Assembly (NCBI GenBank): GCA_014332815.1
Contig: JACSZT010000021.1
Span: 62,001 to 126,000, forward strand
Direction: 5' to 3'
DNA: 64,000 bases
From: Weissella confusa
GTDB taxonomy: Bacteria > Bacillota > Bacilli > Lactobacillales > Lactobacillaceae
A model generated the notes under the pieces. It made no database searches. It had not been told where the DNA came from and was given only the letters and a program-made list of their open reading frames with translations. The position numbers were made by a program, and so were the translations under genes. This document shows, piece by piece, positions 11,910 through 61,248 of the stretch; the first letter of the stretch is position 1; each line of letters starts with the position of its first letter.

Positions 11910-12051
11910 TCAAACAAGCTGGGGTGCCGTTATGGCTGAGATAATACCCATGGAACCTAAGCAGGGTAATGCCTGCCGGGGAGCTTGGTTTGTTTACGAT
12001 TGAAGTAAACGGACCCCAGTATCAGACTGCGTTTGCAGTTATGCTGGGGTC
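11910..12051 (+). ncRNA. TPP riboswitch with intrinsic-terminator platform
   Basis: Thi-box core is plain: CTGGGGTGCC, GGCTGAGATAATACCC, GAACCTAAGCAGGGTAATGCC at 11919-11972, closed by matching flanks CAAACAAGCT and AGCTTGGTTTG. Downstream, GGACCCCAGTAT at 12011-12022 pairs with ATGCTGGGGTC at 12041-12051; the final C and the T tract come from base 11854 and from 11657 onward, so the terminator is complete only after restoration. ACCCCAG can also pair with the aptamer segment CTGGGGT, giving a ready antiterminator. Controls ykoE-ykoD-ykoC. Confidence 0.93.
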
Positions 12052-32046: not shown

Positions 32047-32052
32047 GTTTTG

Positions 32053-32136
32053 GCAACGGAGTCCCATTCTCCCTAAGCCTCAGCGTTTTTCCGCGCCTGC
32101 CGGCTTGAAATCCACTGCTGCTAAGTGATAATTGGT
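32053..32136 (-). CDS. Possible 27-residue hydrophobic small protein
   Basis: Restored frame starting 6 bases after the mmcQ stop: MTIKLTWIILAAGMVGGWAG then GAELLRY. A single hydrophobic segment, ATG printed at 32245-32243 with CTGGA as a weak ribosome site. It runs into the left arm of the long-hairpin element, so the coding reading may be accidental. No family recognised. Confidence 0.3.
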
Positions 32137-32298
32137 GCTCCTGTCCTTGCTTGGTCACCGGCTAATATCGCAGGAGCTCCGCACCACCAGCCCAACCACC
32201 CACCATGCCAGCAGCCAAGATAATCCATGTTAGTTTGATAGTCATTCCTTTGTTGAACCACAACGCTGAGACAATCTACAACGGATTGACTGGTAACG
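32089..32298. repeat. Long-hairpin element, copy A
   Basis: Printed arms 32161-32209 and 32396-32443 are inverted repeats of about 48 bases (GGCATGGTGGGTGGTTGGGC against its complement), with nested pairing inside. After restoration they close a hairpin of about 210 bases. The apex contains a 26-base segment (printed 32088-32113) identical to copy B near 59528-59553. Lies between mmcQ and the convergent metal-binding gene. Could be a structured RNA or a MITE-like palindrome. Confidence 0.7.
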
Positions 32299-32387: not shown

Positions 32388-33338
32388 CGCGCCGAGGCAT
32401 GGTGGGTGGTTGGGCTGGTGGTGCTCCGTCCTGGAATATAAGCTGTATCAAACGGTACACCTTCACAAATTCGCACGCTAGTTGAAGCATTGCAAGGCGA
32501 AAAGGTTCCTGCAACCTTCGTTGAGCAAGGCGAGTCAGACAAGCCTATGCAAACTGTTATTTCACAAATCAACTCACATATTGCTGGTGAGTTGTGGACG
32601 GACTCAGTTTCAAAGAAGTCTGGTGTTGTCCCAACGTACTACGTTCCTGAGCACAAGGCTTACTACGCAAAGCGCGCTGCAGCTTACGAAGCTAAGTTGC
32701 AAACTCTTTACGAAAAGTGGGACGCTAAGTTCTCTGCCCTACCTGCTGATGACAAGAAGTTGGTTACGCAAGAAGGTGCCATGGCATACTTCGCCCGTGA
32801 CTTTGGTTTGAAGCCATACTTCATTTGGGAAATTGATACGGTCTCAGGTTGGTTTGATAAGTTGATGAAGACGACTGACAAGCACTACGGTAAGCAAATT
32901 TTCAACGTGACTGACGGTATCGACACAATCAAGTTGACGACGGCCGGTGTTGCTGGTCAAGATAACCCTCACGCTTGGAACGGTATCTTGGAAGGTAAGA
33001 CTTACGCTGCTAACATTGCTAAGGTACTTGAGAAGAAGGCCGGTCGTTTGAATGTTGTTTCTTCATTTTCAATCATTAACGAAATTAGCCAAGAAGTTGG
33101 TGGTAAGTACGTTAATGCACACACGATTACAGCGATTGGCGCTGACCAACACGATTACGATCCAACGCCTACTGACGTTAAGCGTACGCAAGACGCAGCC
33201 GTTGTCTTTGCAAACGGTTTGAACCTTGAAAAGGGTGTGTTGTAACGGGTGCGGTTATTTTTATTATTTCGTTTTTGATTCACTTGGTTACGCGTCGTCG
33301 CATGCATGACCAAGCTACTAAATAGGAGTTTTATTATG
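32388..33338 (+). CDS. Metal (Mn2+/Zn2+) ABC transporter substrate-binding protein
   Basis: Cluster A-I (TroA/ZnuA-like) binding protein. Restored length 316 residues. MKRVIGIIVAIAVIAGVVFG is an uncleaved-looking N-terminal membrane segment without a lipobox Cys. Then GADQHDYDPTPTDVK (first metal His), QDNPHAWNGI (second His), EGAMAYFARDFGLKP (third ligand area), a late EQGESDKPMQTV, ending ETIYNGLTGNDK. ATG printed at 33336. Last gene of its operon in transcription order. Confidence 0.9.
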
Positions 33339-57699: not shown

Positions 57700-59079
57700 A
57701 GTAGGTAAAATAGCTATTTTAAAATAGATTGCTCACAGTACTGGCAAAGTGTCATGCACTGTGAGCAATATTTTTTTATCTGCTTTTCGAGATACCAAAC
57801 CAGTTAATCAACGTCTTCGCGATTCGGTATGAACCACCGGCATCGGCAACCAATCGACCGATCATACCACCGAAGATGAAGATAACTGAGTTTGATCCCA
57901 AGATATTACCCATACCTTGGTCACCCAAAACAGCGTTTGGAACATCCATTGGGTTCATACCCAATAGCAATGCCAAGATGAACGCCGATGGAGCTGGCTG
58001 TGGAGGCAAGAATCCTTGTGCTGATGACAAGGCAGCCGTCATTGAGATACCCAAGTAAAGCAATGGCACACCGGCTTCGATGGCAACCGCAAATACGATA
58101 GGAATCAAAAGCACCATTCCAACACCGAAAATCATTGAGATTCCAATGATGAATGAGGCAATCAACACGGCCCATTGCAAACGCTATGGCGTCTTGTCCA
58201 ACTCGTATTCCTTAACTTCACCAACAGCCTTGATTTCCGTCTTAAATTGGAATGCGTCAGGGGCGTACTTTTGAGCCAACTTTGTGAACAAAGGACCCGC
58301 AACAACGGCCGTGATAACTGACACAATCAAACCAAGAATCAACGTCAAACCAATGTTAGCACCCAATGACATTGCCACGGCCGTCCAGACACCCATTGAG
58401 AAGATGGCAAAGATCAACGCAATCGTCATCGCAACAGCTGGCGTTGCCAAGAACTCAACAACCTTATCGAAGTTTGATGGGTTCTTTGGCGTTACACCAC
58501 CCGTGTAAATCATCTTGTAAACCGTAGCGATAATCATGAAGATCAATGGGAACACTGACGTAATTACTGACAAGAAGAATGCTGCCCAGGCGAAGATAAT
58601 CACCGTGATAGCTGACATGTGACCGTTAGCTGAGAACAATGAGGCAACCTTGTCTGACAAACCACCGTTTACCAAGACACCACGCCATGCTCCTCCACCA
58701 CCAACGATCAACAAGATACCAGCAACTGCGCTCATACCGTTGTTCAATGATGCACCGATTGATTGGGCTGACTTCTTTTGCTCGAAGAATTCTTGGAAAA
58801 TCCAGAATCCAGCGTCGTTAACGTGTGATGCAATCAATGATCCGGCACCGATTGCCAAAGCAACCAAAACTGACAACGTTGGGTTGTTTTGTGATTGCAC
58901 GATTGACAATACGATTCCGGCAGCCGTCATACCGGCAACCGTTGCTGAACCAACTGAGATACGCAATACAGCAGCAATGCATAACGGGTAAGCGGCGACA
59001 CCAACTCCAAACCCAGTCCACAAAAAAGCTCACACAGCAAATGCCGTGTGAGCCTTAATTGAATGTTTATTTTGTTATA
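57700..59079 (-). CDS. gntP: Gluconate permease, GntP family (first copy)
   Basis: H+-coupled gluconate uptake. Restored length 459 residues, 12 or more membrane segments: MEFVMLAISILILLVLIVKF, FIFGGMIGRLVADAGGSYRI, GFLPPQPAPSAFILALLLG, AAYPLCIAAVLRISVGSATV, ASHVNDAGFWIFQEFFEQ, and the GntP C-terminus QIWTVLETIISLTGMVVILA. ATG printed at 57682-57680, stop at 59077-59075. Confidence 0.93.
57728..57772 (-). terminator. Terminator or attenuator between gntK and gntP
   Basis: ATTGCTCACAGTGC...GTACTGTGAGCAAT stem. No T tract directly behind it on the minus strand, so it may trim expression of the downstream permease instead of ending transcription. Confidence 0.6.
59022..59056 (-). terminator. 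Terminator after the first gntP
   Basis: AAGGCTCACACGGCATTTGCTGTGTGAGCTTTTTTG: 11-bp stem with T tract. Confidence 0.85.
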
Positions 59080-59296
59080 GCAAGATCATTGCCATTGCCA
59101 AGATAACAACCATACCTGTCAAAGAAATAATCGTTTCCAAAACAGTCCAGATTTGGAACGTTTGCTTGATTGACACTAGTTTCCCTTCCTTCGCTTTGAG
59201 CGCCGGCTAATTCAGCAGGAGCTCCACACCACCCCAACTCACCCAAAAACGATAGCAATCAAGATATTCTCGTCTGCCTCTGATAGTCATCTGCGG

Positions 59297-59505
59297 TGCA
59301 TAGTACAGATAGCGATCACCTATTAGTTAACCGTGGATGGTAATCAAAATGACTGAAGAACATCTCGATTGCTGCGTTTTTTTGGCTTGCTTCGTAGTTA
59401 TTTTTATATTTAGAAATGGTCATGTCGTGCTAACGCACGAATCGTTTTTGGGCGAGCCGGGGCGGTGTTCCGTCCTGCTGAATTAGCTGGTGGCGACGGG
59501 AACCT
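59297..59505. repeat. Long-hairpin element, copy B
   Basis: Printed arms 59206-59253 and 59441-59486 are inverted repeats of about 47 bases with few mismatches; nested pairs (TTCCTTAGTC/GACTTAGGAA) fill the interior. Restored size 209 bases, almost the same as copy A, with the same 26-base apex (59528-59553) and different but still pairing arms. Sits in the 666-base restored gap between the two gntP genes, which otherwise holds the first gntP terminator and the control sites of the second gntP. Confidence 0.72.
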
Positions 59506-59642
59506 GATTTTCCTAAGTCCTGGCGTATTTCCGCGCCTGCCGGCTTGAAATCCGCCCTGACTAAGGAACCTGTAGGCCAGCGAGTAATGTAAGCATCTCG
59601 TCTTACCCCTTCTCAATTAAAAAATATCTCAAAATATGTCCC

Positions 59643-59703
59643 ACTTATGAAACCGATTACATAAGTCAACCTAAATATTGTACACCTTTTGTAAGCGCTT
59701 GCG
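59643..59703 (-). promoter_or_regulatory. Operator and cre site before the second gntP
   Basis: ACTTATG and CATAAGT (59643-59649 and 59660-59666) form a perfect 7-bp dyad with a 10-base spacer, the style of a GntR-family operator. About 24 bases away on the far side stands TGTAAGCGCTTGCG (59690-59703), a good CcpA cre. TACAAT lies between them as a likely -10. Suggests gluconate induction plus catabolite repression. Confidence 0.65.
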
Positions 59704-59745
59704 GGTAATAAGTTCATTAAATTTTTAATCAGCATTATTTCATTG

Positions 59746-61248
59746 TTGGGATACCAGAATAAAAAAAGTAATCAGCGATTCCGGCTGGGTTCATTCCCAA
59801 ACCTAGGGCAACCAAAATTGAAGTAATAATCAAAGAAACGAAAGTGTTAATCTTTGCCTTCAAAATCAAAAATAGCAATAATGCAATACCAACTACCAAA
59901 ATCAAGAATGGCCAAACGTTAAAGCCGTTTGTCATCCATTGGAATAATCCCGTCTTAGGATCAGTAGGAAATAGCAATGAAATTCCGATAATGAATGATG
60001 CACCAGCAACCGCCCACTGCAACTTTGACTTACCAAACTTGTTAATCAAAGTTGACGCGATACGGTATGAACCACCAGCATCAGAAACCAAGCGACCGAT
60101 CATTGACCCGAATCCAAAGACAATGACCAACTCACCCATCGTGCCACCAATACCATTCTTCAAGGGGATGATACCGTACATCAATACGACACCAATGTTA
60201 GCACCCAATGCGTTCGTCACGGCAGTTGGTGATGGCTGTGGTGGCAAGAATCCTTGGGCAGCTGACAAGGCAGCGGCCATTGGGATTCCCAAGTAAAGCA
60301 ACGACACACCGGCTTCCAAAGCAATTGTGAAGACGATTGGAATCAAAACAACCAGACCAACTTGCGTTGAAATCAACATGAAGAACACAGGCATCAATGA
60401 CGTGACAAGTGACAAACCAAATGATGGTGTGTCTTCCAACTTAAAGGTCTTAACTTCACCAATCGCATCAAGCTTCTTAGTAATCTTAAATGCCTTTGGC
60501 TCAACCTTTTGAATGAAACGTGTGAACAAAGGTCCGGCAACCAACATTGCGACGATGGCAAATCCCATTGACCAGATAGCAAAGGCCATTGCAATAACCA
60601 TGGCGATAACTGGGTTACCCAACATGGCGATGATACGATCAAGCGTTGTTGGGTCAGCCAAGTAACCGTGTTGGGCAGCTGGCGTCATCGCCTTCCAAGC
60701 TGCATCACCAACCATACCACTGTAAACTTGCTTTCCGCCGTTGTGAGCCAACGTGTAAACGGCAATCAACCATGCGAAGACGATTGGTGACAATGACGTG
60801 TGTGAGAATGCTGAAGCAATAGCGGTTGAGATACCACCAGCAGTCAAGATACCCTTAAAGGCAGCTCCACCACCGATAACCATCAACAAGTTAGCGATTG
60901 ACTTCAAAGCTTCTGACATCGATGAACCAACTTCGCCCATCGTACGTCCTTGCTTTGGGACATCCAAATCAAAGAATTCCTTGAACATCCAGAAGCCGGC
61001 ATCGTTAACGTGTGAAGCGGCCAATGAACCGGCACCGATTGCCAATACCACGAAGGCTGGGTTAACAGCCGTTTGACTAGCAACCAATGGTGCAACGATT
61101 CCGGCAGTCGTCAAACCAGCAACCGTAGCTGATCCAACTGAGACACGCAAGATAACTTAGTTTGTGAAATATTTAATATGTTTATATTCACAAATAAAAA
61201 AGCGCAAACTTCGATGAAAGTTTGCGCTTTTTATGAATTGACGTCAGA
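59746..61248 (-). CDS. gntP: Gluconate permease, GntP family (second copy)
   Basis: Restored length 500 residues, about 40 longer than the first copy because of an N-terminal extension (MLTLLAGL, TDPKTGLFQWMTNG) before NVWPFLILVVGIALLLFLIL. Same motifs as the first copy: VFGFGSMIGRLVSDAGGSYR, GFLPPQPSPTAVTNALGANI, VSVGSATVAGLTTAGI, ASHVNDAGFWMFKEFFDLD, KIWTVLETIISVVGLIVILI. ATG printed at 59596-59594 behind AAGGGG; an internal ATG before NGFNV is an alternative start. Confidence 0.92.
61194..61233. terminator. Terminator after the second gntP
   Basis: AAAAAGCGCAAACTTCGATGAAAGTTTGCGCTTTTT: 11-bp perfect stem with A and T flanks. Confidence 0.88.

Follow-up and report, generated by a model that had tools for sequence, protein, structure and literature searches.

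The window analysed here, i.e. the whole stretch of 64,000 nucleotides of a Weissella confusa contig (JACSZT010000021.1, hereafter C14), carries two neighbouring gntP genes with a long-hairpin element between them, in a record whose sequence is scrambled. Throughout the window, blocks of 198 bp are each reverse-complemented in place. In the raw sequence, GntP, gluconate kinase and other proteins appear with their C-terminal piece ahead of the rest, and clean genomes of the genus align to the gntP region piecewise, in segments of some 200 bp whose strand is kept and whose order is reversed. Complete genes were recovered once the blocks of 198 bp, measured off from the start of the contig, were inverted one by one; the window, which had aligned to a clean relative (G043) in 315 pieces none longer than 215 bp, then did so in 24, the longest of 22,917 bp. 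The block size was decided by similarity to G043: when sizes from 190 to 206 were compared using a longer seed, 198 was the only one that worked (13 alignments), all other sizes giving at least 93. ORF length was uninformative on this point, as multiples of 3 leave reading frames open. Another contig of the assembly, C18, is also block-scrambled, with a phase that differs between two sampled places, and C13 and C21 are intact in the stretches sampled. This pattern would fit a line-by-line reverse-complementing of certain contigs. The gene annotation of the record is unreliable, and the gene content and low completeness (66.5 %) of this public assembly, with at least two block-scrambled contigs, are misleading.

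After restoration, the gap between the gntP genes spans 59081-59746 (stop of the first gene at 59080, ATG of the next at 59747), i.e. exactly the 666 bases given in the sequence-only reading, and the Pfam domain GntP_permease was found in clean orthologues of both genes. An in-frame stop of the upstream gntP (window 58184-58186, restored 57989-57991) lies exactly at a block edge and may be a real mutation or an assembly fault; apart from it, the gene is 98 % identical to its 459-aa orthologue. The restored gap contains the intrinsic terminator that ends the upstream gntP, what is left of a collapsed left arm, the middle arm of 120 nt, the hairpin of 209 nt and a terminal hairpin of 16 nt. These features (copy B), together with those of a second hairpin (copy A), are given below in window coordinates.

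59021..59054 (restored 59101-59134), minus strand: intrinsic terminator of the upstream gntP, directed at the element
58979..59018 (restored 59137-59176), minus strand: collapsed remnant of the other long arm and left end, from comparison with the intact L045 and L046; end approximate
59254..59373 (restored 59178-59297), minus strand: copy B middle arm, 120 nt, palindromic; middle-arm model match C14:121254-121373
59281..59290, minus strand: ATGACTATCA within the middle arm
59177..59253 (restored 59298-59374), minus strand: copy B hairpin, part 1, outer left stem ATCGTTTTTGGG... and inner stem
59441..59572 (restored 59375-59506), minus strand: copy B hairpin, part 2, apex and right stem ...CCCAAAAACGAT
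59420..59440 (restored 59507-59527), minus strand: small terminal hairpin TCGTGCGTTAGCACGA and outer end; end approximate
32051..32208 (restored 32091-32248), minus strand: copy A hairpin, part 1
32399..32446 (restored 32249-32296), minus strand: copy A hairpin, part 2

The 209-nt hairpin of copy B (restored 59298-59506, minus strand) is thus split in the window between 59177-59253 and 59441-59572. Its extended arms, ATCGTTTTTGGG/CCCAAAAACGAT, had been proposed earlier and were located at window 59242-59253 and 59441-59452, as part of a 28-nt inverted repeat (86 % complementary) beside which lies a second one of 18 nt (94 % complementary). Copies A and B proved to be related, with equal size and apex as had been noted, and their similarity far exceeds that of chance GC-rich palindromes. 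Copy A is a half-element (type A, see below) between yjbR and a convergent znuA-like gene. Both copies fold with high stability, with z = -10.6 for the 426-nt restored stretch of copy B and z = -8.2 for copy A (60 shuffles each).

The contig being scrambled and the arms being shifted by block inversion, the hairpin itself could be suspected to be an artefact of the scrambling. The same hairpin occurs in unscrambled relatives, so it was not created in this way, and such hairpins are also present in two unscrambled stretches of the same record; this explanation, whose probability is practically nil, is refuted for the hairpin, and artefactual are the raw spacing and order only. Raw coordinates mislead because the contig is built of 198-bp blocks each reverse-complemented in place, and the hairpin is hard to spot because the public record is cut into small flipped blocks.

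The window contains ATGACTATCA at two positions only, 32236-32245 in copy A and 59281-59290 in copy B, against 0.10 occurrences expected. The sequence-only reading had seen it before both left arms and had suggested a shared element boundary; its presence at both copies stands, whereas the boundary does not, since the motif lies in the middle arm (family consensus roughly ATGATNATC). The true ends are an inverted repeat (about TTTGTGGTTAGTGTCG) located outside the small terminal hairpin.

Comparison with clean genomes identified copy B as a partly collapsed member of a dispersed Weissella repeat family, its hairpin being one arm of the element. The hairpin was found in 5 of 28 genomes of the genus, and the middle-arm model together with another arm type raised this to 6 of 28, the additional genome, G021, being weaker (matches at G021:C44:26089-26211, i.e. 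L261, and on G021:C11). These G021 matches are possibly a diverged branch with other arm types. Dispersed copies are most numerous in G013, at about 30 loci, and fewer in G043, G023, G003 and G000 (the scrambled record). The middle-arm model gave 58 matches in G013, which amounts to about 30 loci, most of them being hit once on either strand of this palindromic arm. A pattern scan of a species-genome collection, which may omit records of the window's own genome, returned 20 stretches, all from Weissella confusa, and arm model R1, applied with stricter filters to a sample of 201 Lactobacillaceae genomes, matched only G000. Before filtering, a clean relative of 2.3 Mb had 88 inverted-repeat clusters. 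The filter required an arm pair that spans more than 60 bp and, in addition, either another pair or an arm score of 24 or more; eight clusters passed it, seven of which belong to the hairpin family. G043:C1:2039305-2039661 holds another long inverted repeat, unrelated to the family, whose arms measure about 70 bp. A phage or plasmid element was rejected, as there was no match to the repeat in viral contigs (exact pattern) nor in plasmids and phages (blastn with one copy).

Complete elements of the clean Weissella genomes are inserts of about 560-606 bp, made of inverted-repeat ends, small terminal hairpins, and two long arms of 176-212 nt on either side of a palindromic middle arm of about 122 nt. 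The terminal inverted repeats (about TTTGTGGTTAGTGTCG) are imperfect and present at both ends. A complete element consists of two half-elements joined head to head, each of which starts at the centre with one half of the middle arm and continues outward through a single long arm, of type A, B, C, D or another, to a small terminal hairpin and the inverted repeat at its end. Some halves stand alone; the pairings observed are B with A, C with A, D with A, and C with an arm type of 187 nt. Copies are non-coding, with no consistent reading frame across the aligned copies; a coding reading of the left arm of copy A as a short Gly-rich peptide was rejected, its frame and length varying between copies. 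Rfam gave no credible match for the repeat, and none at gathering score in 18 loci, and promoter scans of two elements did not rise above shuffled sequences.

In 19 of 30 regions, the minimum-energy fold has three abutting arms of more than 35 nt, with at most one unpaired base between neighbours. Among the 11 regions without this three-arm star, three (L045, g820 and g600) fold otherwise and eight are truncated or devoid of a long arm (L049, L063, L098, L102, g1595, g1698, copy A and copy B). Against 60 shuffles each, the folds of two complete elements reached z = -18.4 and z = -17.0. For most complete elements, a star of adjoining helices is the predicted fold of one strand.

The elements lie in intergenic DNA, and their position relative to transcription terminators was assessed for those whose ends could be placed. 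An intrinsic terminator lies beside all 24 of them (about 19 distinct loci after orthologue removal), with a hairpin of at least 12 pairs, directed at the element, and a T run 4-28 bp from that end. In controls, for which the thresholds were laxer, a terminator was present at 39 of 400 random placements and at 361 of 1,500 points drawn at random from intergenic DNA. The empty sites of G043 that correspond to L047, L048 and L056 also show the T-rich terminator end. At the gntP locus, the T run of the upstream gntP terminator lies about 5 bp ahead of copy B.

These sites bear on the function that had been suggested for the hairpin, a strong barrier to transcription or supercoiling between the gntP genes, considered here more broadly as a putative host regulatory device that could also act on RNA stability. 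The very stable fold agrees with such a role, as do the neighbouring genes, which are co-directional in 21 of 28 groups (convergent in 4, divergent in 1, and unclassified in the remaining 2). However, a terminator already stands ahead of the element, neighbours differ among loci, and some copies lie between convergent genes. The gntP locus bears complete elements in G013 and G043, the collapsed one in G000, and remnants in G003 and G023. With copy B just past the upstream gntP terminator and the locus reduced to remnants in two relatives, a barrier is less likely as the purpose of the element, and we consider this explanation very unlikely.

Sequence variation within the arms was analysed on an alignment of 32 hairpins, i.e. 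those of 30 clean loci and the two of the restored window, the partial copies L050 and L099 being left out. The outer 29-nt stems of these 32 copies, one of which is a deletion chimera pairing at 14 of 29 positions, show 89.7 % complementarity within copies and 55.5 % between them; none of 10,000 permutations reached the within-copy value. These stem-coupling figures, like those of the core, are not to be read as probabilities, the copies being related. The core was analysed in 29 of the 30 copies from clean loci, L103, a deletion chimera, being left out: 99.0 % of cells pair versus 93.7 % when shuffled, two-sided changes affect 14 pairs versus a shuffled mean of 10.0 (reached in 1 of 500 shuffles) and 81 cells versus 20.3 (0 of 500), and pairing falls to 35-45 % when partners are slid. 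The core measure of further pair types was not raised (26 versus 27.8 in shuffles). Interior loops lie at the same places in the 29 copies.

Imperfect pairs carry a strand signal. On the outward strand, G.U exceeds A.C by 56:5 in the outer stems, by 20:3 cells in the core (over 7 and 3 positions, respectively) and by 12:1 in five type D arms. The excess is absent in nine type C arms counted without four partial arms (5:11, mostly one conserved site) and in the middle arm (about 10:8). A first count of 72:27 had come from folds forbidding G.U, and 26 of the 27 were C.A. The outward strand is the more stable one in 32 of 32 A/B arms, 5 of 5 D arms and 7 of 9 C arms. The two halves of one element favour opposite strands, and no single transcript fits both.

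In our reading, the coupled stems and the G.U excess reflect selection that acts, in each half, on one strand in its folded state; the alternative is strongly strand-biased mutation. The latter is part of another explanation, in which the arms are passive DNA palindromes kept alike by template switching or gene conversion, free of selection on the fold. Arm-to-arm copying would give whole stems that vary among copies yet remain complementary, as seen here, and the type C and middle arms, devoid of a G.U excess, agree with it. Yet such copying would erase the interior loops that are fixed at the same places in 29 copies. The G.U to A.C ratios of 56:5 (A/B) and 12:1 (D) are also larger than is usual for mutation asymmetry. 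We hold passive palindromes to be an unlikely explanation.

Evidence on mobility came from the comparison of filled sites with empty or nearly empty sites in G043. Flanking direct repeats, which had been suggested as a check, were looked for: no consistent target-site duplication emerged from 15 filled/empty junction comparisons, several of which are blurred by divergence and remnants, and GTT on both sides at L056 is possibly due to chance. Identity between copies of one genome does not exceed 95.3 %, against up to 99.5 % for orthologous pairs, and recent transposition is thus not shown. Some of the apparently empty sites bear remnants and are losses, which account for part of the presence/absence pattern, and elsewhere the comparison of G003 with G043 revealed deletions leaving a half-element or an internal junction. 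Minimal end-repeat stems also stand alone, e.g. at G043 455518 after a terminator. Stems with little or nothing between the end repeats were observed on contig C1 of G043 near 209842, 455518, 1659722 and 2012825, and are possibly fully collapsed elements. No partner transposase was found for the repeat, and a search for its end repeats revealed no parent transposon with the same ends in G043 contig C1 (one contig, 22,500 masked bases).

Taken together, these data probably describe an old, decaying, non-autonomous and protein-free mobile element of a small Weissella group, whose folded strand is under selection. The family would have been dispersed by transposition to sites next to terminators, through an enzyme supplied in trans that acts on, or depends on, a single strand in its folded form, either RNA or the outward strand of the DNA. 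This dependence would keep the arms paired, and copies would then decay by deletions into half-elements and small stems, as may have happened at the gntP locus. More tentatively, each half-element might be an outward-reading structured RNA or a specific DNA strand that moves in folded form and enters at intrinsic-terminator hairpins with no protein of its own, a target preference that would have arisen independently of group IIC introns, joined halves and star being a transposition intermediate. This last proposal is speculative, and we would not expect it to hold; if true, half-elements moving by their fold would form a new class of fold-dependent mobile element.

Several known systems share part of these properties. 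BOX and ERIC are modular or hairpin-forming intergenic repeats like the Weissella repeat, but they are shorter, and we know of none that forms multi-arm stars beside terminators. The repeat resembles bacterial MITEs, at least as seen in the parts consulted of the reports on Coxiella (PMC5896051) and MITEAba12 (PMC6382973), in being short, non-coding, dispersed, mostly intergenic and bounded by inverted repeats. The searches made here found neither a target duplication nor a parent transposase for it, and it differs from MITEs in its long arms, which abut over about 600 bp and whose stems change in a coupled way, and in its strict terminator neighbourhood. We file the repeat as a MITE-like variant of the non-autonomous interspersed repeats. 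With the REP/REPIN-RAYT system, as far as the consulted part of its description goes (PMC3733652), it shares palindromic intergenic repeats able to act as folded single strands and arranged in head-to-head pairs, but REPs measure 20-40 bp. The Y1 transposase (Y1_Tnp), searched for as a RAYT test, was found only in G021 and G023 among the six family-bearing genomes.

Group IIC introns, according to the sections consulted of PMC4424553, likewise insert at intrinsic terminators and fold in several domains around a hub. The Weissella repeat might accordingly be a degenerate RNA retroelement related to them, in keeping with its terminator sites, its multi-arm fold around a hub and its RNA-like mismatches. 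However, no group II match was found in Rfam, either at gathering score (18 loci) or up to E = 10 (three elements), nor did any of the six genomes that bear the family give a match to reverse transcriptase, the negative for G000 being unreliable in a scrambled record, where negatives carry little weight. The repeat is symmetric, and symmetric ends with halves on opposite strands do not suit an intron. This origin appears extremely improbable.

The decaying mobile element with a selected fold remains our preferred reading. The literature searched, mostly at abstract level, yielded no description of the Weissella repeat, including in what was seen of PMC9161744 and PMC8506157, and no described repeat was found in which long arms that abut and stems that change in a coupled way occur together with exchangeable halves and neighbouring terminators. 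The roughly 30 loci of G013 offer a natural replicate set for considering a folded single strand as a unit of movement, as well as the tolerance of cells to long palindromes. Apart from the repeat, a TPP riboswitch aptamer scoring above the Rfam gathering score lies at window 11910-11999.
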